DNA from: Polyangia bacterium
GTDB taxonomy: Bacteria; Myxococcota_A; Polyangia; Fen-1088
Reading direction: 5' to 3'
NCBI GenBank assembly: GCA_036268875.1
Contig: DATATI010000021.1
Location: 62,001 to 126,000, forward strand
DNA: 64,000 nucleotides
Shown: piece by piece, positions 8,482 to 47,084 of the stretch
Layout of the letters: each line of letters starts with the position of its first letter
Numbering within the stretch: position 1 is the stretch's first letter
The notes under the pieces: generated by a model
Told to the model about the DNA's origin: nothing
Seen by the model: only the letters and a program-made list of their open reading frames with translations
The model's database searches: none
Position numbers and translations under genes: made by a program

Positions 8482-8603
8482 GCGGGACGGGAAAGGATAT
8501 ACGACCTTTCATGACTCGGCTTGTTGGAATCGAGGGCCTTCCGGGGCGCGGCCTCTCCGTTGACACCGGCGGAAACCGCACGTTACTTTGCGCCGCGCGT
8601 CCG

Positions 8604-9314
8604 ATGAAGAACCGCCGGGCTTTGTACGCCGCCTCGCGAAGCGTCCCGGCCGTCGTCCTGGCGGCGACGATTCTTGCCGGCGTCAGTCCAGCGGCCCAGG
8701 CCGCCACCGTCAAAGGCGTGGTGCGCCTGCCGGAAGGCGCGCGCAGCACGCGGCTGTTCCAGGGCTACTGGCGCGTCGAGAACGGCAACGTCCCCATTCA
8801 ATCGGGCGGCGGCGCCAAGGCCGAGACGGCCGTGGTCCTGTTCGGCGTCAACGGCACCCACCCACCCGCCGCCCGCACCGTCACCGTCGAGATCGGCGGC
8901 CTGGACGCCCGCCCGCGCCTGGTCGTCGTCGGCCCGGGATCGGTGCTTGAATTGAAGAACACCGGCAAGGTCACGCACGAGTTCTCCACACCCGAACAGC
9001 CTTCGGTGATGCCCATCGAACGCCTGTCGCCGGGGGGAATTCGCCGCCAGATCTTCAGCGCCATCGGCGGATACATGGTCCAGTGCGCCGAGTATCCGCA
9101 CATCACCATCTCCGTGCTGGTGGTGGATTCGCCGTATTTTTCGACGCTGGATGAAAAGGGAAACTTTTCCATCGGCGGCGTCCCCGACGGCAAGGTGACG
9201 TTGAAGGTGTGGACCCGCGGCCGCTGGGCGCACGAGCAGGAGATCGAGACCGCCAAGAGCGACGACCTGACCGTCAGGGTCCCCGACCCGAACGAGAAGG
9301 AATCGGGGGAGTAA
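8604..9314 (+). CDS. Secreted cupredoxin-like protein with a regulatory-like C-terminal domain
   Basis: This 236-residue protein has a Sec signal peptide (residues 1-33, AAQA cleavage). A plastocyanin-like fold spans about residues 75-175: H125 in TGKVTHEFSTPEQ, then C161 and H166 in YMVQCAEYPHITI. The axial Met of classical type 1 copper sites is not seen after H166. Residues 180-230 resemble a carboxypeptidase-regulatory-like beta domain (GNFSIGGVPDGKVTLKVW). It resembles the 34969-35889 protein in overall design. Only 4 bp separate it from the downstream membrane sensor, so the two are co-transcribed and likely work together in the periplasm. Confidence 0.8.
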   Translation: MKNRRALYAASRSVPAVVLAATILAGVSPAAQAATVKGVVRLPEGARSTRLFQGYWRVENGNVPIQSGGGAKAETAVVLFGVNGTHPPAARTVTVEIGGLDARPRLVVVGPGSVLELKNTGKVTHEFSTPEQPSVMPIERLSPGGIRRQIFSAIGGYMVQCAEYPHITISVLVVDSPYFSTLDEKGNFSIGGVPDGKVTLKVWTRGRWAHEQEIETAKSDDLTVRVPDPNEKESGE

Positions 9315-9318
9315 GTCG

Positions 9319-11052
9319 ATGTTCTTGTCGAAGATCTGGTTCATCTTGATCGCCCTTCTGGCCGGCGTGGCGGTGACCATTGCCCTGGTGGCGCCGCGCC
9401 CGGTGGTGCAAAAGCTGGCGGCGCTGGAAGGCCAGCGCCTGGATCGCGCGCAGTACGCCGCCGAGCAGATGTTGAAGGTCGACGCCCACAAATGGATCGA
9501 CCGGGTGTCGAAGATGGGCCGAGACGCCATCATCGCCGAAGCGCTGGACGCCGCCTCGCGCGGGTCGGGCGAGTACATGGTGCTGCACCGGACAGTGTCC
9601 GATCGCTTCAAGGCATTGATCCCCGATCCCGTCGGCGGCGGGATCGAGACGCTGGTGGCCGTCGACAACAAGGGCCGTGTGGTGGCCCGTATGGGTGACA
9701 AGGACAAAGAGTACGGCGACTACGTCGGCGGCGCCGAGGTGGTGGCGGACGCCTTGCGCGGGTATCTTTCGGACGACGTGTGGGGCGCGGGCGGCAAGCT
9801 GCGCCGGGTGGCCGCGGCGCCGGTCCTGTCGAAAAGCCGCGACCGCATCGTCGGCGCGATCTACGTCGGCGCCGAGACCGGCGCGGCCCTGGCCGATCGC
9901 TTGAAGAAGAACCTGGACGTCGACGTGGCGCTGCTTCTGCGCGGCAAGGTCATCGCGGCGACAAACTGGGCCAGCGACCTCGGCATGCTGCCCGATCTTG
10001 TGGCCGCCCACGCCAAAGAGGTGCACGAGGTCAAGCGCACCCCGGCGCTGCCGCTGACCGTCGGTCAAGACAAAGTGCTGGCGGTGGCCGCGCCTTTCGC
10101 TGGGCAAGCAGGACAGCAGCAGGCGTATTACGTGCTGATGGGGAAACAGCCGGCCAACTCGGATCTGGGCGCGCTTTTGTCCAACACCAGCTCGGATGAC
10201 TTGAAGTGGGGCCAGTTCCCCTGGGTGGCGCTCATCGCCGGGTTGCTGGTGGTGATCGGGGTCGGACTTTTCTTGCAGAGTTACGAAGTGGAAAAGCCGC
10301 TGCGCACGTTGCGCCGCGATCTGCAGCAACTGGGACGAGGCGACATCTTCAAGATTCAGGATGGACATTACGGCGGACGCTTTGGCGGTCTGGCCCGTGA
10401 CATGAATGCGGTGATCGAACGCTTCACGCACGCGCCCGGCCCGCAATCGGAGATCGCCGGCAAGGATCTGAACGCCATCCTGGATTCCGCGCGGCCAAGC
10501 CAGGCGTTCGATCTGCCGAGCGCGGGCTCCAGCTTTGGCGGCAGCACGCCGCCACCCGCCTTCGCGCCACCGCCGGCCAGCACGTTTGTCCCGCCCCCGC
10601 CGCCGTCGTTCGCGCCGCCTCCGACGCCGTCGTTCGCCCAGCCGACACCGTTCTCGGCCGCGGCGGTGCAAGGCGCCACCGGCGGCCTCGGCCGAAAAAA
10701 TCCGTTCGGCAGCTCCCCGGGTGGCGGCAGCTACAGCGACGGCGGCCATTACTCACCGGAGCCGATGTCGATGGGCCGCAGCCTGACCGAGGACGACGCC
10801 GACGAGACCCGGGTGGTCCCCGGTGACGCGGCCGAGGAAGAAGGCCACTTCCGCATGGTCTACGAAGACTTCCTGACCGCCAAGCGACAGTGCGGCGAAT
10901 CGCTGGCCGGCCTCACCGTCGACAAGTTCATGGTCAAGCTGCGCGAGAACAAGGCCACCCTGATGTCCAAGCACCAGTGCCGCACGGTGCGCTTTTCGGT
11001 CTACGTCAAGGACGGCAAGGCAGCGCTGAAGGCCACGCCGGTTCGCGACTGA
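9319..11052 (+). CDS. Membrane sensor protein with HAMP-like linker and MXAN_5187-type C-terminal domain
   Basis: This 577-residue protein has a membrane helix at residues 5-25, a periplasmic Cache-like region to about 295, a second membrane helix near 300-318 (WVALIAGLLVVIGVGLFL) and a HAMP-like segment (LRTLRRDLQQLGRGD). A low-complexity Pro/Ala/Phe linker spans about 400-450, and a C-terminal domain (FRMVYEDFLTAKRQCGE to VYVKDGKAALKATPVRD) matches my recollection of the MXAN_5187 C-terminal family of myxobacteria. GGGGGAG precedes the ATG. No kinase or cyclase output domain is present, so signal output is unknown. Position suggests it senses the state of the upstream cupredoxin-like protein. 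Confidence 0.75.
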   Translation: MFLSKIWFILIALLAGVAVTIALVAPRPVVQKLAALEGQRLDRAQYAAEQMLKVDAHKWIDRVSKMGRDAIIAEALDAASRGSGEYMVLHRTVSDRFKALIPDPVGGGIETLVAVDNKGRVVARMGDKDKEYGDYVGGAEVVADALRGYLSDDVWGAGGKLRRVAAAPVLSKSRDRIVGAIYVGAETGAALADRLKKNLDVDVALLLRGKVIAATNWASDLGMLPDLVAAHAKEVHEVKRTPALPLTVGQDKVLAVAAPFAGQAGQQQAYYVLMGKQPANSDLGALLSNTSSDDLKWGQFPWVALIAGLLVVIGVGLFLQSYEVEKPLRTLRRDLQQLGRGDIFKIQDGHYGGRFGGLARDMNAVIERFTHAPGPQSEIAGKDLNAILDSARPSQAFDLPSAGSSFGGSTPPPAFAPPPASTFVPPPPPSFAPPPTPSFAQPTPFSAAAVQGATGGLGRKNPFGSSPGGGSYSDGGHYSPEPMSMGRSLTEDDADETRVVPGDAAEEEGHFRMVYEDFLTAKRQCGESLAGLTVDKFMVKLRENKATLMSKHQCRTVRFSVYVKDGKAALKATPVRD

Positions 11053-33075: not shown

Positions 33076-33117
33076 AGCCGCCGGCGCCGCCGCCCAGGGC
33101 GGCGGTCAGGCGGCTTC
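33074..33117. terminator. Hairpin at a convergent gene junction
   Basis: A 9-bp outer stem (GAAGCCGCC with GGCGGCTTC) encloses a second GC-rich stem (CCGCCGCCC with GGGCGGCGG). It spans the stop codons of the phosphoesterase and the kinase. No T-run follows on either strand, so it is at best a weak or Rho-assisted bidirectional terminator. Confidence 0.4.
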
Positions 33118-34947
33118 GCGCCCCAGCTCTTCGCCGAACAGAAGCTGCATCAGGTTACCGGCGTCGGCCTTGCCGCCGCCGATGTGAGCGGCCAGCATCG
33201 CCCCGAACTCGTCGGCGGTCTGAAAGCGCTGGGCCGGATCAATGGCCAGCGCCTTCTCCAGGATCTGCGCGGCGGGTTCGGGCAGGGCCCGAATTTTCCT
33301 GTACCCCTCCGCCGTCGGTCCGGTGGCCGCCTGATACAGCACCTCCAGATCATTGTCGCCGTCGTAGAACAGCTCGTTGGTCAGCGTGTAGTAAAGCACC
33401 AGCGCCAGCGAGAACAGATCGCTGCGGCCGTCGACGGTGTGGCCGCGCGCCTGCTCGGGAGACATGAAGTTCGCGTTGCCCTTCACCATGCCCACCTGGG
33501 TCTTCGTCACCCGGCGGTTCGATTTCACGATGCCAAAATCGAACAGCTTGACCTCGCCCTGCAACGACACCATCACGTTGGCCGCCGAGACGTCGCGGTG
33601 GACGATGCCCATCGGCGATCCATCCCGCTCGCGCTTGTTGTGCGCGTACGTCAGCGCCTGCAGCGTCTCGTGGGCGATGTAATAGGCCAGCCGGTGATCA
33701 AGGGCCCGCTTGGTCTTTTCGTAATAGCGGGTCATCAGCCGGACCACGTCGCGCCCGACGATGTACTCCTGGGTCATGAAGTACTCGTCGCCCACCATGC
33801 CAAAGTCGAACACCGGCACGATGTTCGAATGCACCAGGCTGGCCTGCATGCGCGCCTCGTCGATGAACTGGGCGACGGCTTCCTTGTCGCGCGCCAGTTC
33901 GGGACGGAGGCGCTTCAAGACGAACGTACGTGAGAACCCTTCCACGCCGTAAGCGACGGCGGTGAAGATCTCCGACATGCCGCCTTCACCCAACCGATCG
34001 AGCAGCTTGTAGCGCCCGAACAATGTCCCCGGCGCCACGTCGCTGAGCGGCCGCGAACCGCGCATGGTCATCGGCACCGACGGCAAGCTGCCCGCCCCAG
34101 TGGCCAGGCCGACCGCTGGCGCCGCCGCCCCCGACGCCGTGGTTCCGACCGGCGACGCCACATTGAGCACCTTCGATTCGACGCGCATCTGCGGCCGCCC
34201 GGGCGTGCCGCCGAACTTCAGCGTGTCCTCGTGCGGAACCGCGCCGGCCACCGGCGGCTGACCGCCCCGACGGCCGCCCGTCACCAGCAGCAGCAACCCG
34301 ACCACCGCCAGCGCCGCCGCCCCGCCCCAGAACATCATTCCCTCGATCGGCTGTCGCGCTGGTTCGGACGGCGCTCGGGTGGCGATCGGTGCCGCCGGAT
34401 CCACCGGGCTTTTGCGGGCCAGCACCAGCACCGGCTCTTTGTTGCCCAGCGACGGCATCTTGGCCGCGCCGATCAGATACAACGTGCCACCGATGTTCAC
34501 CGCCGCGGAGGCCACCTTGTTCTGCCGCGCCTCTTTCACCACCGGCTTGTCGTTGACGCCCAGGTCCAGCTTGCCCTGCGCGGCGAACAGAAAATCTCCG
34601 ACGATCACCCGCGTCGCCGCGTATTGCTCCCGGTACGGGCGCCACCAGTCTTCGTTGTCGAACAGGTCCATCAGCGTCGGTCCATCGACGTGATTCTCCA
34701 GCGCGGCGTTCAGGGGCTTGGTCGCCGCGGCGTCCAGGGTTCGCGCCTCCATCGTCCGGCGCTCGGTGATCAATCGCTGCGACAGGGCTTCTTTGGCCGC
34801 CGCGGTCTCGACCCGGATGGATTCCGCCTCTTCGCTGCGCCGCGCGTCTCCGCGCATCGCGAAGGCTGCGATGCCCGCGCCGCCCAGGATCATCAGAACG
34901 GCGATGATCTTCCGGGACGCTCCCGCGTGCGTGCTGGAACTGGACAT
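33106..34947 (-). CDS. Transmembrane Ser/Thr protein kinase with N-terminal sensor region
   Basis: This 613-residue protein has membrane helices at about 13-31 and 203-223 with an extracytoplasmic sensor of about 170 residues between them. A Pro/Ala/Gly linker follows, then a complete Hanks-type kinase domain (about 311-590): Gly loop RLGEGGMSEIF, K345 (VLKRL), E364, HRDVSAANVM with D452 and N457, and D470-F-G. All catalytic residues are present. This order is inverted relative to usual PknB types, where the kinase is N-terminal. AGGGAG precedes the ATG. It is the last gene of the peroxidase/porin/cupredoxin operon and likely reports the redox or copper state outside the membrane. Confidence 0.9.
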   Translation of the reverse strand: MSSSSTHAGASRKIIAVLMILGGAGIAAFAMRGDARRSEEAESIRVETAAAKEALSQRLITERRTMEARTLDAAATKPLNAALENHVDGPTLMDLFDNEDWWRPYREQYAATRVIVGDFLFAAQGKLDLGVNDKPVVKEARQNKVASAAVNIGGTLYLIGAAKMPSLGNKEPVLVLARKSPVDPAAPIATRAPSEPARQPIEGMMFWGGAAALAVVGLLLLVTGGRRGGQPPVAGAVPHEDTLKFGGTPGRPQMRVESKVLNVASPVGTTASGAAAPAVGLATGAGSLPSVPMTMRGSRPLSDVAPGTLFGRYKLLDRLGEGGMSEIFTAVAYGVEGFSRTFVLKRLRPELARDKEAVAQFIDEARMQASLVHSNIVPVFDFGMVGDEYFMTQEYIVGRDVVRLMTRYYEKTKRALDHRLAYYIAHETLQALTYAHNKRERDGSPMGIVHRDVSAANVMVSLQGEVKLFDFGIVKSNRRVTKTQVGMVKGNANFMSPEQARGHTVDGRSDLFSLALVLYYTLTNELFYDGDNDLEVLYQAATGPTAEGYRKIRALPEPAAQILEKALAIDPAQRFQTADEFGAMLAAHIGGGKADAGNLMQLLFGEELGREAA

Positions 34948-34968
34948 GACGTGCTCCCTTTTAAACCT

Positions 34969-35889
34969 CTACTCGCGGTAGGACCCGTAGGCTTGCCCCA
35001 GTTTGTTGGCGTGCGCCTTGGCTTCTTCGCGCTCGAGCACAAAAGACGCCTGCCCGCCGCTGGCCGTGACGTCGACCTTCTGCTGCACCGGTTTGGCGTT
35101 CGGGGACCAGACAACCACCTTGCGCGCGCCCACCGGTACGTTGTCCAGGCGGAAGCTGCCGTCGGCGTGAACCTTGGTGTACAGGTTCGACGGCACCACC
35201 AGTACATCGGCGGTCATCTTCTGGTGCATGTTGCAGAAGATCTCCACCACCCCCGGCGACGTCAGCGTCACGGCGCGCGGCTTGTCACCGGCGCGATAGC
35301 TGCCAAGGTCGAACGTGTTGCGCGGCGAGGTGGAAAAAACATTGTGATAGACGCTGTCATAGTTCGGAAAGATGATGCTGGTCCCGGCCTGCACCACCGC
35401 CAGCCGCGGCACGAATTGTTTGTTCTCCTGTCGGATCTCGATGCTCTTGCCGTGCACCGCCGGGCCCTTGACGCCGTCGACGTAGACAAAGACGTCGCCC
35501 AACGTGCCGCTCGATACGGAGACTTTTCCTTCCACGAAGGAATTGCGCCGCGCCGACTCGGTGGCGGGGCGCGTGCGGGTGGCCGCCGGTGAAGCCAGCG
35601 CCGGATCACTGGCGGCGGGCATGGGCGCCTCGTCGGCCGGACGCGACCCGCCCTGGCTCTGAGCACCGATCAGCTTCAGCAGCATGTCGTAGCGGCTCTG
35701 CTCGTTTTGCAGAATCTGCAAGATAAGCTGCCGCTGCTCGCGCACCTCGTCTTTCAATTTGTTGAACTCGGCCGTGGTGGGGCCGCCGTTGGCCGGATCC
35801 TGCGCGCGGACGGGCAGCGCGATCTCCACGATGCCGACCGCCACCAGGACGGCCACGGCGCCGCGAAGGGGATTGTTGAGGTGATTCAT
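34969..35889 (-). CDS. Secreted cupredoxin-like protein with a full type 1 copper site
   Basis: This 306-residue protein has a signal peptide (residues 1-29), a helical segment (41-75) with coiled-coil character and an Ala/Pro linker. A plastocyanin-like domain carries H182 (SVYHNVFSTS), C219, H222 and M225 (IFCNMHQKM), the classical H...CxxHxxM type 1 ligand set. A beta domain of the carboxypeptidase-regulatory type follows (DGSFRLDNVPVGARKVVVWSP). It should carry electrons or bind copper in the periplasm. GGAAGG precedes the ATG. The gaps to the porin (25 bp) and kinase (21 bp) genes indicate one operon. It is a distant relative of the 8604-9314 protein. Confidence 0.85.
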   Translation of the reverse strand: MNHLNNPLRGAVAVLVAVGIVEIALPVRAQDPANGGPTTAEFNKLKDEVREQRQLILQILQNEQSRYDMLLKLIGAQSQGGSRPADEAPMPAASDPALASPAATRTRPATESARRNSFVEGKVSVSSGTLGDVFVYVDGVKGPAVHGKSIEIRQENKQFVPRLAVVQAGTSIIFPNYDSVYHNVFSTSPRNTFDLGSYRAGDKPRAVTLTSPGVVEIFCNMHQKMTADVLVVPSNLYTKVHADGSFRLDNVPVGARKVVVWSPNAKPVQQKVDVTASGGQASFVLEREEAKAHANKLGQAYGSYRE

Positions 35890-35914
35890 CAGAGCGCCTT
35901 CCGTTCCTTGTCCA

Positions 35915-37420
35915 TCAGTTGATGAGCACCAACGAAGTGGTGAACACGTCGTCTTTGATCTGGGGAATGCCGCCGTATTCGCCGTTGTGCAGATATTCGG
36001 CCTTCACGATCACCCGATCGCTGAAGGCCAGACGAATGCCGCCGGTGGCCCGCCATTCCTTGGTGATGTAAAGGCGATTGGCGCCCTGGGCGGCCGATGG
36101 ATCGCCTTGCCACACCAGCGCGTCGCGAAACTCGCCCCGCCCCAGCACGCCAAACAGCGGCGTCACCATCCAGTCGACCTCGGCGTAGCCGCCCCCGTGC
36201 AGCTTCAACGCATAAAGGTCGGTGTCCATGCTGCCGCTCGCTGTCGCGCCCGGCGAGGCGCCGCGCAGGTACTGCGCCTTCACGTCGACGGTCTTGATGT
36301 GCAGCTGCAGGTCCGCGCCCAGAAACCACATGGCGCCCTTGCTGTCGGGCGCGCGATCCTGCGCGCCGTACGACCCGGACACGCCAACCTCGACGTCGAC
36401 GGGAATCGGAGGATGGATCGACAGCCGGCCGCTGGCCGTCTTCGCGGCGTTGGTGTCGATCTCGTTGTAGAAATGAAACTGCTCGGTGGTGTTCGATCCG
36501 TTGGTCACCGCCGCCGCCAGGACCACCATGTCCTCCGGTCCCCATTTGCTGCGGACCTTCAGGCCCAGCGCCGTGCCGGTGGTGTAACGGGCGATCAGCG
36601 AAGGGGTGATGCCGAAACGCTGCGACGCCTTGCGGTCGCGGTACTCGATGCCCAGGACCGAATCGAACTTGCCGACGAAGATCGACGTCTTCTGCGACCG
36701 GGTGGGCATCCACTCCAGTTGGGCCAGATCAACATCGAGAAAATCGCCCAGGCTGAAGTTCGAGCCCGTGCGCGGAACAAAGTTCACGCTGGCCGTGGCC
36801 AACAGGCCCTCGCCCAGCGACGACGTCAGCAGCAGATTGACCTCGTTGACGATGAAGCCAGGCGCCCCGCCCGAGTGAATGCCGTCATAGCGTTGCGCGC
36901 CGGCAGCATCACCCAGATCCGCCGCCTCGCCGCGCGAGTTCACCGTCGGCGCCAAGAGGTCGCCGAGGAAGACCCAGCCGTATTGCCCTTTGTACCGCGG
37001 GAACAGGGCGTTGGCGTCGTCGCGAATGATCCCCGAACCGTTGCCCTGGGTGGCGAAGAACCCGAAGTCGACGTAACCGCCGACCGTGACCCGCGGCTGG
37101 CGGCCTAACAGCACGCCGCGCATCTGTTCCAGGCGCGCCTCGGTGTCGCGCATGCGATCGGCCAGGTCGCTGAACGTGGCCGGCTGGGCGTCGCTGGCCT
37201 CCAGAACACCGTCGCCGTCGTCGACGGACGTCACCTGCAGATTTGGCGCCGGCGCGGGGGTTGCCGGGCGCGCGCCGCCGCTCGGTGTGGGAGCCACCGG
37301 CGTCGGCGCCGGCGGCAAGCGCTGGGCCGCGCGTCCGGTGGTGGGCGGCGCGGCCCATCCTCCCGCCGGCAGCGACGCGAAGCTGGCCGCCAGCAGGCCA
37401 AAGACAGTGCGTTTGTTCAT
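35915..37420 (-). CDS. Porin-like outer-membrane protein
   Basis: This 501-residue protein has a signal peptide (cleavage near GWAAPP, residue 24), a Pro-rich linker and a short helix (DLADRMRDTEARLEQMRGVLLG) as in trimeric-porin-like proteins. A long series of amphipathic beta strands follows (VGGYVDFGFFATQGNG, KTSIFVGKFDSVLGIEYRDR). It ends SLVLIN. It starts in a 4-bp overlap with the di-heme peroxidase gene, so translation is coupled. It may admit or release the substrate or product of the redox enzymes; the cargo is unknown. Confidence 0.8.
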   Translation of the reverse strand: MNKRTVFGLLAASFASLPAGGWAAPPTTGRAAQRLPPAPTPVAPTPSGGARPATPAPAPNLQVTSVDDGDGVLEASDAQPATFSDLADRMRDTEARLEQMRGVLLGRQPRVTVGGYVDFGFFATQGNGSGIIRDDANALFPRYKGQYGWVFLGDLLAPTVNSRGEAADLGDAAGAQRYDGIHSGGAPGFIVNEVNLLLTSSLGEGLLATASVNFVPRTGSNFSLGDFLDVDLAQLEWMPTRSQKTSIFVGKFDSVLGIEYRDRKASQRFGITPSLIARYTTGTALGLKVRSKWGPEDMVVLAAAVTNGSNTTEQFHFYNEIDTNAAKTASGRLSIHPPIPVDVEVGVSGSYGAQDRAPDSKGAMWFLGADLQLHIKTVDVKAQYLRGASPGATASGSMDTDLYALKLHGGGYAEVDWMVTPLFGVLGRGEFRDALVWQGDPSAAQGANRLYITKEWRATGGIRLAFSDRVIVKAEYLHNGEYGGIPQIKDDVFTTSLVLIN

Positions 37421-39072
37421 GGCAGCACCGGCGCGGTTCGCAGCTCGACCGGCAAGGGCGCGCCCGTCAGCGTCTTCAAGAACTCGACCAGATCTGCCTG
37501 TTCATCGTCGCTGAGAAACAGGGGCCGCAGCTGCGGTGCCGGGACACCTTCACCGTTGGTGTCACCCCCGCTGTTGTAGTGCGCGATCACATCGGCCAGC
37601 GATTTGTAGACGCCGTCATGCATGTACGGCCCGGTCAGGGCGATGTCGCGCAGCGTGGGCGTGCGCCACGCGCCCTTGGGGACGCTGTCCAGCGGGTACG
37701 TGTCGTCGGACAAGAATGGTTGCCGTGAACCGTCGCTGGGGTTGTCGCTCCAGGTGCTGCCGCGCAGGAAGGTGTTGGCCCGCAGCTTGGATAGACCGTC
37801 CCGCGCCCCCCAGGGCAGACAGTTCTTGGCCGGCTTGGCCGCCACCATCGATCCATCGGGCGCCGTCGAGGCAGGCGTGCCCACGCAATCGCAGACCCCG
37901 CCCGACGGACAGTCGGCTTCCGTCGGAACGCCGTGCCCGGTCTGGGGAGCGCCCACGTTGTGGAACTGGTTGTCCGAGAAAAGCGGCGTGTTGTGGCACT
38001 CGCTGCAGGCGGCCTTGCCGACGAACAGGCGAGCGCCGCGCTGGGCGCTGGAAGAAATGACGGCGTTGTCGGGACCGCCGCTGATGAATTGATCGAAGGC
38101 CGAATCGTTGCTGACCAACTCGGTCTCGTAGGCGGCGATGGCCTTGCCGAAGTTCACGAACACCCGGTTCACCTGGTCCTGATCGTCCTTCGCCATGCAG
38201 TCCCAGGCGTCGCCGAAAGGTTCGGTCGCGTCGCCCGGCTGACAGCCGGCCTTGCTGCCCGGCTTGCCGTTCAGGGGGAAACGCGGCCAGCAACCGGTCA
38301 CAGCGGAGGTGGCGTCTTTGACCTCGCGGCAACCTTGATCCGTAGGGCAGGCGTTGGTCGCATTCAACTTGCACTGGCCGGCGCGCGCGCCGTCAGCCTC
38401 CAGCAAGGCCAGCAGATCAGTCGACTTGCCGGTCAGGGGTAATGGATAGGTGGGGAAAGTGGCCCCGTAATCAGTGCGATAAAAGTCGTTGATCACCCAG
38501 GCGTCGTGCAACCGCGTGCTGTTCATCGAGACCGCGCCTTCATTGGCGGCCACCGCTTGCGCCCACAATGAATCCGAACGGCCGTTCCAGAACAGCAGGG
38601 TGTAATAGGCCGAATTGGTGGTGGGCTGCGCATTGACGTCGAATTCGCCGGCCCCGATGGAAACGCCGCCCGGCGAAACGTCGTCAATGCCGGCCCGGTT
38701 GGGATCGTGACAGCTGGCGCAGGAGACCAACACCGGCGTGCCCTTTGGCGCGCGCGCGAACGCGGCCAAGACCGGACGCTTCAGATTGTCGACCTGGGTG
38801 GCCATTCCGGAAAATCGAGCGTCAAAGAAGAATTTTTGTCCCAACGTCTGTGCAGCGGGAACAGCCACAAAACTGTTTGATGAATCGACCAGAGGAGCCG
38901 GCAGATTGGCCAGCGCCGCGATCTTGGTCCACTCTTCCGGGCTCCAGTCGCAATCGGCGGACGAGCCGCAAAAAACTTTGTCGGCAGCGCTGCCGCACGA
39001 AGCCATTCCGAGCGGCAGCAGCGTCACCATCACGCCCAGCAGCCGTCCTGCCCGGCCACCGGCCGCGGTCAT
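37417..39072 (-). CDS. Di-heme cytochrome c peroxidase/MauG-family lipoprotein
   Basis: This 551-residue protein has a lipobox (GMASC, C26) and two c-type heme motifs, CASCH (118-122) and CSECH (357-361), with the MauG/CcpA landmarks FFFDARFSGM, LFWNGRSDSLWAQA, YETELVSNDSAFDQFISG and GPYMHDGVYKSLADVIAHYNSGG. A Cys-rich insert (about 235-295) is not usual in the family. Members either reduce H2O2 or carry out long-range oxidations. It is the first gene of the leftward operon. The lipid anchor suggests attachment to a membrane near the porin. Confidence 0.9.
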   Translation of the reverse strand: MTAAGGRAGRLLGVMVTLLPLGMASCGSAADKVFCGSSADCDWSPEEWTKIAALANLPAPLVDSSNSFVAVPAAQTLGQKFFFDARFSGMATQVDNLKRPVLAAFARAPKGTPVLVSCASCHDPNRAGIDDVSPGGVSIGAGEFDVNAQPTTNSAYYTLLFWNGRSDSLWAQAVAANEGAVSMNSTRLHDAWVINDFYRTDYGATFPTYPLPLTGKSTDLLALLEADGARAGQCKLNATNACPTDQGCREVKDATSAVTGCWPRFPLNGKPGSKAGCQPGDATEPFGDAWDCMAKDDQDQVNRVFVNFGKAIAAYETELVSNDSAFDQFISGGPDNAVISSSAQRGARLFVGKAACSECHNTPLFSDNQFHNVGAPQTGHGVPTEADCPSGGVCDCVGTPASTAPDGSMVAAKPAKNCLPWGARDGLSKLRANTFLRGSTWSDNPSDGSRQPFLSDDTYPLDSVPKGAWRTPTLRDIALTGPYMHDGVYKSLADVIAHYNSGGDTNGEGVPAPQLRPLFLSDDEQADLVEFLKTLTGAPLPVELRTAPVLP

Positions 39073-39547
39073 CTGCTACCCCGGAAAACGTAATGTGTCA
39101 TACTGTTTTCATCTGTGTAAGTCGTTGTAACCATTGGCTTGTTTGGAATCGAATGGTTTTCATCGGCGCACCGGCCCGCTTACTTGAGCGCACAGGTGCC
39201 AACCTCTTGACCCTCCGCATGTACGGTGGCGCACGGTTGGCGCCACACTTGCAAAATTCTGCTGCGAACGCGGCGCTGGTCATATGACTAGCGGCTGAAA
39301 GTCAGCGTCGGTCGTGACCGTGGGCGCGCCTTTTTTCAATCGGCGCCCGCTAGTCATATGACCAGCGCCAATAGGTCATTGCCGAGCGAGCAGCCGGCCC
39401 AAGATCCGCGTTCGATTGTCCGGTAGATCCGGGCTCTCAGTTTCGTTCAGGAACAGCTCCGCGGCGGGCATACGCGTTGCAGCAAGGTCTCTGGATGATG
39501 AGCGGCCGCCCGCCGGGCGCTGTGCTTGTCCTCGCGGAGGTTGAGTC
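39073..39547. other. Divergent regulatory region between the two copper/heme operons
   Basis: These 475 bp separate the leftward peroxidase operon and the rightward monooxygenase operon and must hold both promoters. It contains the large inverted repeat at 39272-39369, plus a partial half-site GGTCAT at 39374-39379. An AT-rich stretch near 39090-39120 (TGTGTCATACTGTTTTC) could contain the leftward promoter. No coding frame is convincing. Confidence 0.6.
39272..39369. promoter_or_regulatory. 23-bp perfect inverted repeat with internal palindromes
   Basis: Arms at 39272-39294 and 39347-39369 are exact reverse complements, separated by 52 bp. Each arm contains the palindrome GTCATATGAC (39279-39288 and 39353-39362). 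The palindrome centres are 74 bp apart, close to seven helical turns, so two dimeric regulators would sit on the same DNA face. Position between divergent operons favours a double operator. A long hairpin in RNA is an alternative. Confidence 0.6.
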
Positions 39548-41308
39548 GTGAAGACAGTTCTTTCTTTTTCAAACCGCCACAGTCGGAAGAGAAACCACAG
39601 TCAATCGACAATGATTTTCCAAAACAGATGCGAACAAATTGTTCTTCTGTTATTGCCAATAAGTTTGTTGGCACTGTCGTGCTCCGGGCAAATCGCTGAC
39701 ACTGACAATCCCAACGTCCCCGATAAAGTCATTACCCACCAATTAACCTGGCACCAAGACAGCGGCAGCGAAATTCTTCAGTGTCACATCTTCAAATTGG
39801 ATAATCTAACGCCCATCGAGATCAGCCGGATCCAGTTTCAATTCGGGGACGGCAGCCATCACGTCCATATTTATCGCTCGACGGAGCCGGAAGCGGACGG
39901 GGTCAGTGATTGCTGGAGCGGGATCGCCTGGCCGCGCTGGCAGTTGCTGGCCGGCGCGCAAACCAAACCGTTGGACTGGAACTTGCCCGACGGCCTGACG
40001 ATGCCGCTGGCGCCGCACCAACAATTACTGGTTCAGGTGCACTGGTTGAACACCGGCCCAATGGCCATCGACGGAAAGATCGATCTGTCGTTTCACACCA
40101 CCGACAGCAGCGCCGGCCATGTCGGTGTTCTGTTCGGCGTGAACAAGCAAGTGGACCTCTTGCCAGGACAGCGCAAGACCATCAGCCACTTTTGCCCGAT
40201 GCCTTCCGGGTCTCGGCTCATCGCCATGATGGGCCATTATCACGCCTTGGGCCGCCACTACGAGGTGACGATGGGCGCGCCCGGCGACGACAGCGCAGCG
40301 GTGATCTACCAAGGCCAGGACGAAAACACCCTGGTCTTTCACGAATACGCTCCGCAGCTGGCGGTGCCGGACGGCGCCGGCTTGGATTTTTCGTGCGAGT
40401 ACTTGAATTTCCGGACCGCCGCCACGATGTGGGGTGCGGACACCTCGACCCAGGAACACTGCAACATGGCCGCTTACTACTACCCGGCCAACGATGATGA
40501 CGCTTTCTGCATCAAGGATGAGGACGACATCGGCACGCTGACCGATCTGCTGCCACCGACCAACGGCTTACGCGCCGGCGATCGCGGCCAGATCACCGTG
40601 CGCGCCGCCGCGCCGATCGAAGCGGACACGGCTGTCCCGCTGGTCAGCTCGGATCCCACGGCGCTTAGCGTGCCCGCCATGGCCTGGTTCCCCGCCGGCG
40701 CGCGCGAGGCCACCGTCGACGTCCAGGCGCTGCGCCCGATCGGGCAGGTCTCGCTGACAGCCACGCTGGGCACGCAGACGATCAACACCGCGCTGTCGAT
40801 CGGTGGGCTGGGGATCTCGGAGTTCATGGCCGATCCTGCCCCGGGCCAGCGCGGGGGCCGCTGGGTCGAGCTCAGCAGCTCGTCGCCCTTCCCCATCGAC
40901 CTGGGCGCCTATCGTCTGGGCGCCGGCCACCACAGCTACGGCGAGATCGCCGTTCCGTTGACCGGGATGCTGCCGCCTTTTGGTTGTCTCTTGGTTTCCG
41001 AATCGCCGATGGACGGGCTCGGCGGCGCCGACGACACCATGGCCGTGCCTTTTCCCATTCCCGATGGCCTGGACGACAGCGGAGGCATCGGACTTTTCGC
41101 TAGCGACGCCGACGCCAGCGCGATCAGCGCGCGGCTGGACGCGGTCGCCTACGGCGTCAGCAACACTGTCGGGCTGTTCGCCGCCGATGGCCAGCTGGCC
41201 GGCACGGTGGCGACCACGCGCCTTGGCTCGTCACTCGGCCGCACCACCGACGGACACTGGCAGGCCAATTTGGTACCCACCCCCGGCATCTGCGAGACCG
41301 CGCCATGA
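39548..41308 (+). CDS. Type II copper monooxygenase-like (PHM/DBH fold) lipoprotein with lamin-tail-like domain
   Basis: This 586-residue protein has a long n-region then a lipobox (LLALSC, C45). Residues about 60-315 carry every ligand of the ascorbate-dependent two-copper monooxygenases: H104-H105 (GSHHVHIYR) and H165 (VQVHWLN) for CuH, H230-x-H232 (MGHYHALG) and M307 (EHCNM) for CuM. Such enzymes hydroxylate C-H bonds with O2. Residues about 425-580 resemble a lamin-tail domain (GISEFMADPAPGQRGGRWVEL). The start is GTG 39548, with GGAGG 7 bases upstream; ATG 39611 is an alternative. It is coupled to the next gene by ATGA. Confidence 0.82.
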   Translation: MKTVLSFSNRHSRKRNHSQSTMIFQNRCEQIVLLLLPISLLALSCSGQIADTDNPNVPDKVITHQLTWHQDSGSEILQCHIFKLDNLTPIEISRIQFQFGDGSHHVHIYRSTEPEADGVSDCWSGIAWPRWQLLAGAQTKPLDWNLPDGLTMPLAPHQQLLVQVHWLNTGPMAIDGKIDLSFHTTDSSAGHVGVLFGVNKQVDLLPGQRKTISHFCPMPSGSRLIAMMGHYHALGRHYEVTMGAPGDDSAAVIYQGQDENTLVFHEYAPQLAVPDGAGLDFSCEYLNFRTAATMWGADTSTQEHCNMAAYYYPANDDDAFCIKDEDDIGTLTDLLPPTNGLRAGDRGQITVRAAAPIEADTAVPLVSSDPTALSVPAMAWFPAGAREATVDVQALRPIGQVSLTATLGTQTINTALSIGGLGISEFMADPAPGQRGGRWVELSSSSPFPIDLGAYRLGAGHHSYGEIAVPLTGMLPPFGCLLVSESPMDGLGGADDTMAVPFPIPDGLDDSGGIGLFASDADASAISARLDAVAYGVSNTVGLFAADGQLAGTVATTRLGSSLGRTTDGHWQANLVPTPGICETAP

Positions 41309-42675
41309 AGCTGCTGCCGCTGTTGGCTCTGCTGGGGGCAATGACCGCGCTGGCAGCGTGCGCCGAGCCGGATCGGGTGTCGACCGTTCCGATCACCGTC
41401 GACGGCTGGGCGGAAATTCACCAAACCATCATCGCCCCTGGCTGCGCGTTCGCTTCGTGTCACGCCGGGGCACAGCCGGCGGCGCACCTGGACCTTTCGA
41501 CCGCGGCGGCGGCGTGCGCCCAGCTGGTCGGTCGAACGTCCTGCTTGTTTCCGAAACAGACGCTGGTGACCGCCGGCGCCCCAGAGCAGAGCTTCCTGCT
41601 CACCAAGCTGACCGGTGACGGCTTGGTGCCACAACCCGAAACCGCCTGCGGCGGTCCCAGCAACCAACGAATGCCGTTCGGCGCCCTGCCCCTACCTCCC
41701 GATCACATTGCGGCCATCAAATCGTGGATCGCCTCGGGCTCGGACTGCGGCGGACCGGCGATGGCGCCCCCGACCAGCATTCCCGGCCTCGGCGACACCG
41801 ACGGAGGCACGGCAATGGAGCCAGACGCCGGATCGGACACCCTGCCCGACCCGGCGCCGACGGTGGTGCAGGCGGTGACCATCGACCAGCCGATCATCCA
41901 GGCCGGCGCTCCTGTCGCGATCTCCGTGGTGCTGTCAGGCCCGGCGCCCGTGGGAGGCACACTGATTTCCATCGACGTTTCCGATCGCAGCATCGTCGGC
42001 GCGGCGGCCGACTTGCTAGTGCCGGCCGGCGCCACGACCACCACTACAACCGGGATCGGCAAACGCCCCGGTCTCGTGCGAATCAGCGTAGGCGTCCAGG
42101 ACACCGCGACTGCGGCATCCACCAGCCTACGCGTCGGCGGATTGCTCATCACCGAGGTCTTGGCCCAAGGAAGCGCGCCTATGCCGGCGGGAACGACCTG
42201 GATCAAAGTGGCCAACGTCAGCCAGGCGGCCATCGACCTCGGCGCCTATCGGTTGGGCGCAGGCCTCGGCTCGCTGGCCGACGCGGAGATGCCGCTGCAG
42301 GGCATTCTGTTGCCGGGAAGCTGTGCCGTGATCGGCGGCCCGCGCAGCAACGTTGACAACGGCGCGCCTTCCTACGCGCTGCTCTGGGATCTCTCGACGG
42401 TGCTGCAGGAGCGTCCTGCGGACAGTGCTTTGTCGGCCGGCATCGCGTTGTTCGATGCGCAGCCGGGAGTGGCTTCCACCCCGCCCATCGATGCCCTGGC
42501 CTTGCCGCGCTCGCCTGCCGCGGCCGCGTTGTCCGGCAACGACGGACAACCGGTTCCGTCGACGGGACAATGGCCGGCTCCCGGTAGCAGCCTGGTTCGC
42601 GAGCGCCTGAACCATTGGGTCAGCCATTCGACACCGACCCCTACCACTTGCGATGCGCCAGCCAGCGCCCCCTAG
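41305..42675 (+). CDS. Cytochrome c-like lipoprotein with CX4CH motif and lamin-tail-like domain
   Basis: This 456-residue protein has a lipobox (LAAC, C19). Residues 30-150 look like a small cytochrome c: CAFASCH (C47, C52, H53) has four residues between the cysteines instead of two. A candidate axial Met is M123 (QRMPFGALPL), and the ending helix is AAIKSWIASGSDC. After an Asp/Pro-rich linker, a C-terminal domain resembles that of the preceding protein (ITEVLAQG...IDLGAYRLGAG). It may pass electrons to the copper monooxygenase. Whether heme attaches at CX4CH is not known. Confidence 0.75.
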   Translation: MKLLPLLALLGAMTALAACAEPDRVSTVPITVDGWAEIHQTIIAPGCAFASCHAGAQPAAHLDLSTAAAACAQLVGRTSCLFPKQTLVTAGAPEQSFLLTKLTGDGLVPQPETACGGPSNQRMPFGALPLPPDHIAAIKSWIASGSDCGGPAMAPPTSIPGLGDTDGGTAMEPDAGSDTLPDPAPTVVQAVTIDQPIIQAGAPVAISVVLSGPAPVGGTLISIDVSDRSIVGAAADLLVPAGATTTTTTGIGKRPGLVRISVGVQDTATAASTSLRVGGLLITEVLAQGSAPMPAGTTWIKVANVSQAAIDLGAYRLGAGLGSLADAEMPLQGILLPGSCAVIGGPRSNVDNGAPSYALLWDLSTVLQERPADSALSAGIALFDAQPGVASTPPIDALALPRSPAAAALSGNDGQPVPSTGQWPAPGSSLVRERLNHWVSHSTPTPTTCDAPASAP

Positions 42676-43236: not shown

Positions 43237-44607
43237 TCAGACTGTCAGCCCGGTCAGCGGGCCGGTGCACAGCTGCGGGTAGCCGAACGTGGTGACGTCC
43301 TCGAAGCCCATGGCGTGCATGATCGAAACCAGCAAATTGTTGTGGTTCTGGTTCTGGAACTGAAGGTAACGGCCGGTCTTGAAGTAGCCGCCGCCGCCCG
43401 CAAGCATCCACGGGATATTTTGGTACGTGTGGCTGTTGCCGACGCCCAGTTCGTTGCCCCAGAGCACCAGGGTGTTGTCCAGCACAGTGCCGCCGCCGGT
43501 ATCGGGAACAGCCGCTAGCTTATCGAACAGGTACGCGATCTGCTGTGCGTGCCAGACGTTGATCTTGGTCAGCTTATCTACCGCCACTGCGTCGTTGTCG
43601 GCGAGGTGCGACGTGGCGTGGTGCTCATCGGGCACGCCGATGAACGGATACAGCTGCCAGCTGTCGGCGTTGGCAAACATGAACGTCGACACCTTGGTCA
43701 ACCCGCAGGTCTGCGCCAGCGCCATCAGATCCAGCTGCATCTGCGCGATCGTCGGGTAGTTGGCCATCGCGTTCGGATCCAGCTTCGTCGCCGGCTGGGT
43801 GGGCGGCTTGCACGAACCGGCGCTGTTGGTCAGCTGCTGCTCGAGGCTGGCGATACCGGTCAGGTGCGCATCCAGGCGCACCTTGTCGCTCTTCGCGATG
43901 CGGGTCTGCAGTCGAGTAATGTCGTCCTTGAGAAAGTCAATGATGCTCTTGCGCTCGTTCAGCACCTTGGTCAGCTGGTCAGACGACAGGTTCGCGTCGG
44001 CGAACATCGTCGTGTAGACCTCCCATGGATCGCCGTGGATCCGGTTCGGCATGTCTTTGCCGCGGTAGGAAATGACAGTCAGCGGTTCTTGCCCGGTGAC
44101 GCGCGCGCCGAACTCCCACGAGGGGAACTTGGTCGTGCTGCCGATCTTGTTGACGATGGCCTGGTCGACGGAGATCGAATCCGCCCAGCCGGCCGGACCC
44201 CCAGCGCCTGTGAAGCTGCCCGGTCCCAGCGAACCGCCGGTCAGCATCCCGCCCGGCCCTTTCATGTGCGGGCCGCCCGGCTGGTTGGGCAGATTGGTCG
44301 ACGACATGTGCACGCCCTTGAGCACCAGCATCTTGCTCTGGTATGTCTTCAGCGGCATCAAGATGGGGCTCAGCGTCAGCGGCGCGTCGGTCGCGGTGTC
44401 GCTTGGGAAGAATGCTTTCGGGATGGTGCCGTTGGCCGAGAAGATGCCGATGAAGCGCTTGGCGGCCGGCGCGCTGGCATCCGCGCCGAACGCGGTCGCC
44501 GTCTTCCAGACCGGGCTGGTGAGGGCCATGGCGGTCGCGCCCATGCCGCGCAGAAGGCGGCGGCGGCTGAACTTCGTGCGCGAGTCGATCGGAGAACGGC
44601 GGTTCAT
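43237..44607 (-). CDS. DUF1552-family secreted protein (Tat-type signal)
   Basis: This 456-residue protein has an N-terminus with a twin-arginine-like signal (KFSRRRLLRGMGATAMALTS), which suggests export in folded form. The body matches the DUF1552 pattern: FIGIFSANGTIPKAFFPS, LVLKGVHMS, SSWEFGARV-like SWEFGA, and WGNELGVGNSHTYQNIPWMLAGG near the C-terminus. The family resembles the alkaline-phosphatase-like DUF1501 group but its function is not known. The start at 44607 sits in an ATGA overlap with the upstream DUF1592 gene, which decides it against a start at 44778. The pair is a recurrent module. Confidence 0.88.
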   Translation of the reverse strand: MNRRSPIDSRTKFSRRRLLRGMGATAMALTSPVWKTATAFGADASAPAAKRFIGIFSANGTIPKAFFPSDTATDAPLTLSPILMPLKTYQSKMLVLKGVHMSSTNLPNQPGGPHMKGPGGMLTGGSLGPGSFTGAGGPAGWADSISVDQAIVNKIGSTTKFPSWEFGARVTGQEPLTVISYRGKDMPNRIHGDPWEVYTTMFADANLSSDQLTKVLNERKSIIDFLKDDITRLQTRIAKSDKVRLDAHLTGIASLEQQLTNSAGSCKPPTQPATKLDPNAMANYPTIAQMQLDLMALAQTCGLTKVSTFMFANADSWQLYPFIGVPDEHHATSHLADNDAVAVDKLTKINVWHAQQIAYLFDKLAAVPDTGGGTVLDNTLVLWGNELGVGNSHTYQNIPWMLAGGGGYFKTGRYLQFQNQNHNNLLVSIMHAMGFEDVTTFGYPQLCTGPLTGLTV

Positions 44608-46340
44608 GGTGACACCTGCGAGTCGAGAGGACGGCGGTAAAGGAACGCGTCGTTTTGAACCATCGCGGTTGGCAAGGCATTGAGGCTTGCGCCGGCAGCA
44701 CGGAACTGGGTACCGAGATCGCTGAGCGAGCACGCGTCGGCCGGTCCCTCGGTGCGCGTCAACATGTAGCGGAACCACTGCGTGGCCATGCAGTCCTGCA
44801 CCTCGCTGCTGGCGGCAAGCTTTTGCGCCAGCGCGGGGACGCCATCGAAGGCGCCATCGACGTCGGTGCCGGAGAGCTGGCCGCTGGCGTCGACCGGCTG
44901 GCCATTGTCGACGGTGCGGTATTTTCCAACGGCGTCGTAGTTCTCGAAGCCGAGGCCGATGGGATCAATGAGCGTATGGCAACTGGCGCACGTAGCAACG
45001 CTTTCGTGCTCTTTGAAACGCTCGCGCGTCGAAACGCCAGCCATTACGTCGGGCGCCTTGGGGACGTTGGGAGGCGGCGGCGGCAAATACTGGCAGAACA
45101 GATCCTCGCGCACGAACTTGCCGCGGTAGACGGGCGAGCTGGAATCGGGCCTTGCCTGCAACGCTAATAGCGCCGGCAATGTCAGCAAGCCCGACAGTGG
45201 ACCGACGCCGGTCGGCTGCACGGTCTGGAACGACGATCCCGAGACAGCAGCGCCGTAATAGCTGGCCAGGTCCTGGTTGGCGAACACCTTCGTTGACGTG
45301 AGCAGCGATGTCAGCTTGCCGCCCCCATTGCCGAGCACGTCGTTGAAGAACGCCTGCGCCTGGCCAATCATCGAATCCTTCAGCGTCGAGCTTCCCCAGG
45401 TTGGGAACATCGTCGCGTCCTTGGTCAGGGCGTCGACGCTCGCCAACTGAACCCAGCTCGCCAGGAACCGCTGCACCACCGTCTGTCCCTTCGGATCAGC
45501 CAGCATCCACGACACCTGCGCCGCCACGCCATCTTTCGTGTTCAGCGTGCCGGCGGCGGCCGCGGCGGTCAGCTTCGCGTCGGGCATCGTGTTCCACAAC
45601 GCGTATGAAAGACGCGCCGCCACCTCGTACCCCGACAGCTTGATGGCGTCGGCCGCCACCTTCGTCGCCGTGCCGATCTCGACCAGGTACAAGAAGCGCG
45701 GCGACTGCAGCATCGCGCTGACCATCAACTCGATGCCGTGCTGATAGCTGGTCATCGCGCCAATGTCGTAGACCTGAAGGTGTCGCTCCACATCCGTCGA
45801 GTCGGTCAGCGGCGCTCGGTAGGCACGCGAACCGAAGGTCTGTACGAACGTCTGGGCGCACGTCCTTTGGGTGGCGCCTGCGGCGCATGGGGCAAGGTTA
45901 TTCATCATCGTCGCGCTGCCTGCCACCGCGGCGCCGACAGCGTCACCGGCCCGCTGGAGCGTCTGCAGGTCCGTCGGTCCGAGATCAGCCGGCCCAATCC
46001 CCAGCGACGACGGGCGCGCCGTGTCCGAGAAGATCGAGGCCAGGTTCGGCACCGTGCCGACCAGATCGCCTACCGTATTCAGGTACTGGTCCGGCGTCAG
46101 CAGACGCATCGTTGTCGCGCCCGGCTCAATGGCGTGATTCACACACGCCGCCTGCGTCGGATTCGTCGGTATGACGGCTCCTGGGCCGCCACCGCTTGAG
46201 CTTCCGCCCTGGCCGCCGCCGGGTTGTCCCCCAGCGTTGCCTATGACGCCGACGCCGGTACACGCCGGGGCTGCCATCAGTGCCCACAACCCCAAACAAA
46301 CAGCAGGTGTTCGCACGTTGGTAAAGAACCCCCAGGTCAC
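44604..46340 (-). CDS. DUF1592/DUF1588-type lipoprotein with c-type heme motif
   Basis: This 578-residue protein has a signal peptide with lipobox APAC and a Gly/Ser linker. Domains in the usual order DUF1587-1595-1592-1588-1585 can be traced: LTPDQYLNTVGDLVG, FGSRAYRAPLTDSTD, SGYEVAARLSYALWNTMPD, RGKFVREDLFCQYLPPPPPNVP, then CASCHTLIDPIGLGFENYDAVGKYR with a CxxCH heme motif. The family is common in Planctomycetes and Myxococcota and its reaction is unknown. It appears to start with GTG at 46340. It is translationally coupled to DUF1552 and divergent from an ECF sigma gene. Confidence 0.88.
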   Translation of the reverse strand: MTWGFFTNVRTPAVCLGLWALMAAPACTGVGVIGNAGGQPGGGQGGSSSGGGPGAVIPTNPTQAACVNHAIEPGATTMRLLTPDQYLNTVGDLVGTVPNLASIFSDTARPSSLGIGPADLGPTDLQTLQRAGDAVGAAVAGSATMMNNLAPCAAGATQRTCAQTFVQTFGSRAYRAPLTDSTDVERHLQVYDIGAMTSYQHGIELMVSAMLQSPRFLYLVEIGTATKVAADAIKLSGYEVAARLSYALWNTMPDAKLTAAAAAGTLNTKDGVAAQVSWMLADPKGQTVVQRFLASWVQLASVDALTKDATMFPTWGSSTLKDSMIGQAQAFFNDVLGNGGGKLTSLLTSTKVFANQDLASYYGAAVSGSSFQTVQPTGVGPLSGLLTLPALLALQARPDSSSPVYRGKFVREDLFCQYLPPPPPNVPKAPDVMAGVSTRERFKEHESVATCASCHTLIDPIGLGFENYDAVGKYRTVDNGQPVDASGQLSGTDVDGAFDGVPALAQKLAASSEVQDCMATQWFRYMLTRTEGPADACSLSDLGTQFRAAGASLNALPTAMVQNDAFLYRRPLDSQVSP

Positions 46341-46418
46341 AAGGATGGTTCATCGGCAGATTAAATGACAACTCAAATTACAAAAGCGCCGATTTTCTGC
46401 CTGCGGAAACTGGCTCTC

Positions 46419-47084
46419 ATGTCTAATACTATCAAGGTGATTTTGCTCAAGCGACAGAGTGTGGCTGGTGCAGTGGGCACACAGCCGGCGACCCTGAGTG
46501 ACGATCGCCTTTGTGACGCATTGGCTTCCGGCGAAGTTTGGGCCGCCGACGTCCTCTATGACCGGGTGGAAGAAATTGTCGGAACCGTGCTGTTTCAAGT
46601 CATCGGCCCGGCCGATCACGAACGAGACGATCTGATCCAACAGGCCCTGGAGAAAGTGATCAGCACCGTCGTCTCTGGTCAGTTTGGCCGGCGCTGCAGC
46701 CTGAAATCGTGGGCCGCGCTGATCACCCAGCACGTGGCCTTCGATGCCCTTCGCCTGCGCGCCCGCGAGAGAACGGTGTTGGATCGATCGATCGTTCCCG
46801 AAACGTTGGAGCTGGTGGCGACCAACGACGACACGCCGGAGCTGGCGCTGGACGTTCGCCGGCGAATGGAAAGCCTGCGTGCCGCGCTGGCGGCAACCAA
46901 ACGCGATCGCGCTGAGGCGGTGCTGCTTCACGATGTACTGGGGCACGAGCTGACGGAGATCGCGCAAATGACCGGTGTGTCGGTTGCGGCGGCCCAGTCG
47001 CGCCTGGTGCGCGGACGAAAAGATGTGGTGACCCGGATGCGGTCTGCGGAAGCGAAAGGAAAGGGGCGGAAGCAACATGGATGA
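46419..47084 (+). CDS. ECF sigma factor (set 1)
   Basis: This 221-residue protein has region 2 (ADVLYDRVEEIVGTVLFQVIGPADHERDDLIQQALEKV, LKSWAALITQHVAFDALRLRARE) and region 4 (LAATKRDRAEAVLLHDVLGHELTEIAQMTGVSVAAAQSRLVRGRKDV). The start at 46419 leaves 78 bp from the divergent DUF1592 start; a start at 46365 would leave too little room for promoters. The stop overlaps the FecR-like gene by 8 bp. Confidence 0.88.
   Translation: MSNTIKVILLKRQSVAGAVGTQPATLSDDRLCDALASGEVWAADVLYDRVEEIVGTVLFQVIGPADHERDDLIQQALEKVISTVVSGQFGRRCSLKSWAALITQHVAFDALRLRARERTVLDRSIVPETLELVATNDDTPELALDVRRRMESLRAALAATKRDRAEAVLLHDVLGHELTEIAQMTGVSVAAAQSRLVRGRKDVVTRMRSAEAKGKGRKQHG

Follow-up and report, generated by a model that had tools for sequence, protein, structure and literature searches.

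A cupredoxin gene paired with a transmembrane Ser/Thr kinase gene in a Polyangia bacterium: a candidate periplasmic copper/redox-reporting signalling unit

Why is the gene of a blue-copper protein located directly beside that of a transmembrane kinase, together with genes for a di-heme enzyme and an outer-membrane porin? The question is raised by a stretch of 64,000 nucleotides (the window) on contig DATATI010000021.1 of a Polyangia bacterium (GCA_036268875.1, an assembly of 6.15 Mb in 95 contigs). Six open reading frames (ORFs), P0001 to P0006, are arranged as a minus-strand operon (33106-39072), termed the cassette, and a plus-strand pair (39548-42675). The closest named relatives for the cassette genes were uncultured Myxococcales and Deltaproteobacteria. 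A preliminary description had joined all six proteins into one extracytoplasmic copper/heme pathway with its own kinase. The ORFs were found where it had placed them and in the same order, and both ATGA overlaps of 4 nt each, at 37417-37420 (TCAT on the plus strand) and 41305-41308, were present. The idea of a copper/heme system with a dedicated kinase held for the minus-strand operon, which is conserved and paralogous in related genomes; the plus-strand pair did not belong to it.

We lean towards reading the minus-strand operon as a signalling unit that reports copper or redox conditions in the periplasm. In it P0002, the cupredoxin, would act as a dedicated input subunit of the receptor P0001, whose periplasmic Cache/CHASE4-like domain would read the cupredoxin's copper loading or redox state and switch the cytoplasmic Ser/Thr kinase. 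The di-heme protein P0004 may exchange electrons with the cupredoxin, or oxidise a partner or substrate using H2O2 or O2, and the porin P0003 may admit the substrate of P0004. The parts of this proposal differ in weight. A functional coupling of cupredoxin and receptor is very probable, and we infer that it involves physical contact. That the signal is copper or redox state is about as likely as not, and the roles given to the di-heme enzyme and the porin, that is, electron flow from the one and a cargo of the other, are tentative.

The pairing of cupredoxin and receptor carries the argument. Cupredoxin relatives were retrieved by a scan from 80 named loci, assigned by their record titles to Myxococcota and Acidobacteriota and in addition to Eisenbacteria, Omnitrophota, Schekmanbacteria, Dadabacteria, Scalindua and Woeseiaceae. 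In many GC-rich loci the cupredoxin escaped a self-trained gene caller, which was replaced by another. In the resulting gene calls, the cupredoxin was followed by a large protein with two transmembrane (TM) segments in most named loci. An immediate two-TM receptor on the same strand was present after 31 of 76 cupredoxin genes, but after 7 of the 781 remaining genes in these loci (odds ratio 76, P 3e-29), and many of the junctions were 4-nt overlaps. The outputs of 47 receptors were diverse according to Pfam: Pkinase (13), HATPase (11), SpoIIE (10), Guanylate_cyc (10) and HD (3), thus Ser/Thr kinases, histidine kinases with or without receiver and Hpt domains, SpoIIE-type phosphatases (as in L126), adenylate/guanylate cyclases (L150 has a cyclase) and HD-domain proteins; 37 of them contained a HAMP domain. 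Five receptors (L128, L131, L132, L151, L178) were permuted, with the Ser/Thr kinase at the N-terminus and the periplasmic domain close to the other end, and kept the sensor near the cupredoxin gene. In a further subset the sensor was a separate two-TM protein adjoining a separate kinase.

Trees of the cupredoxins and of the periplasmic domains had 22 of 53 bipartitions in common, with a maximum of 2 after permutation, and required 9-11 changes of the output domain. Inside clades common to both trees, a histidine kinase was exchanged with an HD output (support 1.0/0.97), SpoIIE with a histidine kinase (0.97/0.99) and an N-terminal Ser/Thr kinase with a cyclase (0.997/0.38). What is telling here is that cupredoxin and sensor stayed together through these output changes, within clades recovered in both trees.

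P0002 (34969..35889, minus strand; 306 amino acids), a periplasmic protein and the proposed input subunit, consists of an N-terminal helix, a cupredoxin domain and a C-terminal CarboxypepD_reg-like domain. Its assignment as a type 1 copper protein, already made in the preliminary description, was borne out by the ligands H182, C219, H222 and M225, invariant in 20 of 20 cassette members. In a larger set all four were kept in 64 of 64 proteins, a set partly selected by motifs containing those ligands. The Pfam model Cupredoxin_1 matched with an E-value of 0.0017, below its cut-off. The structure model (pLDDT 86) resembles plastocyanin, amicyanin and pseudoazurin and superimposes on plastocyanin 1bxu with an rmsd of 2.1 over 91 columns, which points to a cupredoxin fold. 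With these proteins P0002 has in common the type 1 ligand set, the predicted fold and the C-x2-H-x2-M loop, but it differs by the extra N-terminal helix, the CarboxypepD_reg-like C-terminus and the linkage to receptors.

The receptor P0001 (33106..34947, minus strand; Pkinase 2e-33) had rightly been described as a transmembrane Ser/Thr kinase. TM1 is followed by a periplasmic domain of predicted Cache/CHASE4-like fold (about residues 32-205), TM2 and the kinase domain (residues 313-577), in which the Gly loop (GEGGMS), the Lys (VLK), HRD and DFG mark a Hanks-type Ser/Thr kinase. For the sensor domain, modelled from codons 34327..34860 (minus strand; pLDDT 85), the closest structure was the CHASE4 domain of PA2072/IsmP (Z 11.8, rmsd 3.5, 148 residues). 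Foldseek gave an E-value of 1.7e-4 for a Cache-type fold, and many Cache domains matched the model, including LuxQ (Z 10.6). The family dCache_3 was matched by 13 of the 47 receptors of relatives; the pair of locus L167 is one with a clear match.

Two known systems resemble this predicted arrangement. In Pseudomonas aeruginosa, IsmP/PA2072 and PA0847 (PMC10904736, PMC13277305) likewise carry a periplasmic CHASE4 fold on a transmembrane signalling protein, and metal, that is Fe3+, heme or copper, is the signal, as proposed for P0001. The CHASE4 domain of IsmP binds Fe3+ (PMC10904736); CHASE4 domains of Pseudomonas bind heme or copper, and that of a PA2072 homologue binds copper 1:1 (PMC13277305). 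In these proteins, however, metal or heme is bound by the sensor itself and GGDEF-EAL forms the output, whereas P0001 lacks conserved His, Cys or Met residues in the sensor, adjoins a cupredoxin and has a Ser/Thr kinase output. No conservation of His, Cys or Met was detected across 56 sensor domains. Since the sensor has no such conserved residues and the cupredoxin has all four ligands, the most economical reading places the metal in the partner protein. LuxQ offers a parallel for such a division of labour: its Cache-type periplasmic domain is read out via a periplasmic partner protein. That partner is LuxP carrying AI-2, while here it would be the cupredoxin, with a contact suggested by gene linkage.

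A second pair of this kind was located elsewhere in the window. A gene for a protein of cupredoxin fold, its ligand loop changed to C-x4-H and devoid of Met (8511..9314, plus strand), is followed 4 bp downstream by a gene for a two-TM dCache_3 receptor with no recognised output domain (9319..11052, plus strand; dCache_3 2e-7). The pair adjoins ExbB/TolR-type genes. The pair is conserved in the family genomes examined: gene calling gave the receptor in all 9 and the cupredoxin-like partner in 8. Pairing thus extends beyond the cassette, and a standard copper site is not always needed.

The first gene of the minus-strand operon encodes P0004 (37417..39072, minus strand; 551 amino acids), a c-type lipoprotein of the MauG/MbnH type with two CXXCH motifs and a CCP_MauG domain (6e-22). 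The di-heme content noted before was thus confirmed, while the name peroxidase proved imprecise. A classical bacterial di-heme cytochrome c peroxidase was rejected, as the Met ligand of the C-terminal domain is replaced by Tyr in all 16 cassette proteins. This residue, Tyr499, is aligned with the axial ligand at position 294 of the MauG chain and with the Tyr of MbnH, and because it is also invariant (16 of 16 cassette relatives) P0004 is assigned to the MauG/MbnH kind rather than to the peroxidases. MauG oxidatively modifies side chains of methylamine dehydrogenase, and MbnH does so for MbnP. P0004 has the two c-type heme motifs and the tyrosine of these enzymes, yet it is longer, is a lipoprotein, and its gene is grouped with porin, cupredoxin and receptor genes. 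Its scores against the NCBIfam models TIGR03791 (MauG; 135.6 bits, cut-off 443.85) and TIGR04039 (MbnH; 118.4 bits, cut-off 362.85) were far below both equivalog cut-offs, and no MbnP match was present among the six proteins. A rubber oxygenase (Rox) was likewise rejected, with no Rox row in the NCBIfam scan of P0004; weak Rox matches were seen in a different protein of locus L099.

P0003 (35915..37420, minus strand; 501 amino acids) shares an ATGA overlap with P0004. The porin-like barrel of the preliminary description agrees with a BBP2 match (9e-6, just below its cut-off), and an alignment with 20 cassette homologues revealed a conserved core, GKFDSVLGIEYR...GITPSL.ARYTTG. A phylum-wide search with a porin profile, in which five candidates per genome were scored, added few new genomes; no prevalence is claimed.

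With each protein searched separately against 59 relatives, the genes for di-heme enzyme, porin, cupredoxin and kinase repeatedly clustered, in G000:C69, G001:C175 and C256, G003:C237, G007:C240 and C128, G011:C368 and others; the order of the cassette recurred in G000:C69, G001, G003, G007 and G011. The cassette was often multicopy, up to several per genome. Cultured carriers include Polyangium fumosum DSM 14668 (L130) and Paraliomyxa miuraensis (L158). In other families of the class the order was seen as well, there with a SpoIIE receptor and a pentaheme cytochrome. In the named set, a pentaheme-type cytochrome was encoded beside the cupredoxin in 15 of 77 loci, all 15 with a porin. The cassettes L107, L109, L110 and L111 also contained a pentaheme-type c cytochrome, often followed by a SpoIIE receptor, and could be an electron-conduit variant. 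Related divergent genes flanked three cassettes (L097:3924-5117, L102:3786-4967, L105:662-1795); that of L102 matches radical SAM, a possible maturation link with the MauG-like enzyme. Adjoining the porin of a relative's cassette, a DHOR-type di-heme protein of 792 amino acids was encoded (L096:3036-5414).

Several points weigh against the cupredoxin as signal-giving subunit. The periplasmic segment of P0001 had no Pfam Cache or CHASE4 row, so that its fold is a prediction of the model. A profile of the periplasmic domain located a sensor at most five genes away from the cupredoxin in 47 of the 54 loci that had 3 kb of flank on each side, and very few matches farther away, but some of the receptors behind this profile had themselves been identified by adjacency and the result is partly circular; the immediate-succession test is the less circular of the two. 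A receptor was absent nearby in 15 of 77 loci, 8 of them cut by contig ends. Tree congruence alone is no proof of contact, because linked genes share their history. Given the altered loop of the second pair, some pairs may signal something other than copper, and the ligand of P0001 could be a small molecule, as is the case for most Cache domains. This last reading, a normal Cache pocket with the cupredoxin linked through a common need for copper or respiration, is unlikely overall, although it is backed by the small-molecule or metal-binding Cache/CHASE4 domains among the closest structures and by the persistence of the pair where the copper loop has changed. It leaves the linkage of one cupredoxin family to receptors of unrelated outputs in several phyla, through very short or overlapping junctions, as a point in disfavour.

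The di-heme enzyme and the porin invite two other explanations. The MauG-like enzyme might mature proteins, oxidatively modifying the porin or the cupredoxin encoded next to it, with the kinase merely reporting envelope status. The MauG/MbnH tyrosine in place of the peroxidase methionine and the divergent genes flanking three cassettes, one of them with the radical SAM match, speak for such a role, but the missing MbnP, the scores far below the equivalog cut-offs and the finding that most cupredoxin-receptor pairs of the named set had no MauG-like gene nearby render it rather improbable. Slightly more doubtful still is an electron conduit, in which porin and cupredoxin, joined by the pentaheme cytochrome in other families, would carry electrons across the outer membrane, with the di-heme protein as terminal or entry oxidoreductase and an attached regulator. 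Sets of porin and multiheme cytochrome and of cupredoxins have been tied to mineral oxidation elsewhere (PMC12016527), and the constant presence of a porin in the loci with a pentaheme-type cytochrome fits a conduit. The window cassette, however, has no multiheme cytochrome, its porin matches BBP2 weakly and no conduit barrel, and many loci have the cupredoxin-receptor pair but no porin at all.

Beyond the single operon, the signalling reading would extend to a widespread class in which a blue-copper protein serves as detachable input subunit of receptors, is read by a CHASE4/Cache domain, feeds varied outputs in several phyla and, in Myxococcota, reports MauG-type periplasmic oxidation. We advance this wider proposal tentatively, with a little less confidence than the mechanism for the operon. 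Should the receptor prove to be gated by the cupredoxin, the copper or redox status of the periplasm could be passed on, in modular fashion, as nearly any signal in the cytoplasm. A large number of cupredoxins that lack annotation, together with their orphan receptors, would then gain a testable function, and the MauG-type di-heme clade a candidate signalling or substrate context. The known parts, that is the cupredoxin, the CHASE4/Cache receptor and the MauG-like enzyme, are joined in a combination not found in the literature searched, and a description of the cupredoxin-receptor module was absent there as well, which is no proof of novelty.

The plus-strand pair is a neighbour of the minus-strand operon, not a component. 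P0005 (39548..41308, plus strand) is a type II copper monooxygenase-like lipoprotein with a lamin-tail domain (LTD), in agreement with its earlier assignment: Cu2_monoox_C (PF03712) was passed with 23.9 bits (cut-off 23), and residues HH 104/105, H165, HxH 230/232 and M307 are placed, by inspection, like ligands of PHM-type enzymes. Unlike copper type II monooxygenases of the PHM type, whose C-terminal domain and expected ligand motifs it shares, P0005 gave no match to the N-terminal domain PF01082 at E-values up to 1 and is fused to an LTD. A search of PDB sequences with P0005 returned nothing useful. P0006 (41305..42675, plus strand) is a lipoprotein sharing the C-terminal half of P0005 (32% identity, weak lamin-tail matches), apparently a duplicated surface module. 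It had been taken for cytochrome c-like; this was discarded, as no cytochrome family was matched and CXXCH is absent, the only similar motif being C-x4-C-H at 47-53.

In relatives, P0005 was not linked to the cassette. The cassette-rich genomes G001 and G003 had no P0005 match, and other relatives had only distant ones (~30% identity), away from cassettes. About 100 related cassette or cupredoxin loci contained no gene of the Cu2-monooxygenase, LTD or PSD type and only one weak HXXSHH fragment (L120). Near P0005 homologues, a MauG-like gene was present in 1 of 20 loci; in this sole case, L205, the P0005 relative is divergent from the MauG-like gene. The six-gene pathway was therefore rejected: P0005 and P0006 did not co-occur with the cassette in any relative examined, an outcome that the preliminary description had itself named as refuting its proposal. 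That all six proteins oxidise an extracellular, possibly polymeric, substrate is very improbable, and the arrangement of the operons, head to head with a genome-unique inverted operator-like pair between them, is what speaks for it.

The tight coupling asserted for the two operons applies within each, through the ATGA overlaps; between them there is head-to-head adjacency over 475 bp. This intergenic region holds a perfect inverted pair of 23-nt arms, the left at 39272..39294 and the right at 39347..39369, each near-palindromic around the core GTCATATGAC and spaced 74 bp centre to centre or about seven helical turns. A 14-mer of the arms has just these two sites in the whole 6.15 Mb genome. 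A repeat element or known RNA as origin was rejected on the grounds of the two genome copies and the lack of an Rfam match there. The motif was absent from the other fetched loci. In form the arms resemble a paired operator through which one operon, or both, would be regulated locally, and they are the only hint of coupling between the two.

Past the kinase gene P0001, an HflX-type GTPase and a calcineurin-like phosphoesterase are encoded on the opposite strand. Past P0006 follow a helix-turn-helix (HTH) fragment, an HXXSHH (DUF1552) gene adjoining a PSD-type gene (DUF1592/1588/1595/1585) at 43237-46340, an ECF-like gene with sigma-70 regions 2/4 that overlaps one with a FecR domain (46365-48063) and, 3 kb beyond the first, a second PSD gene (49425-51164).

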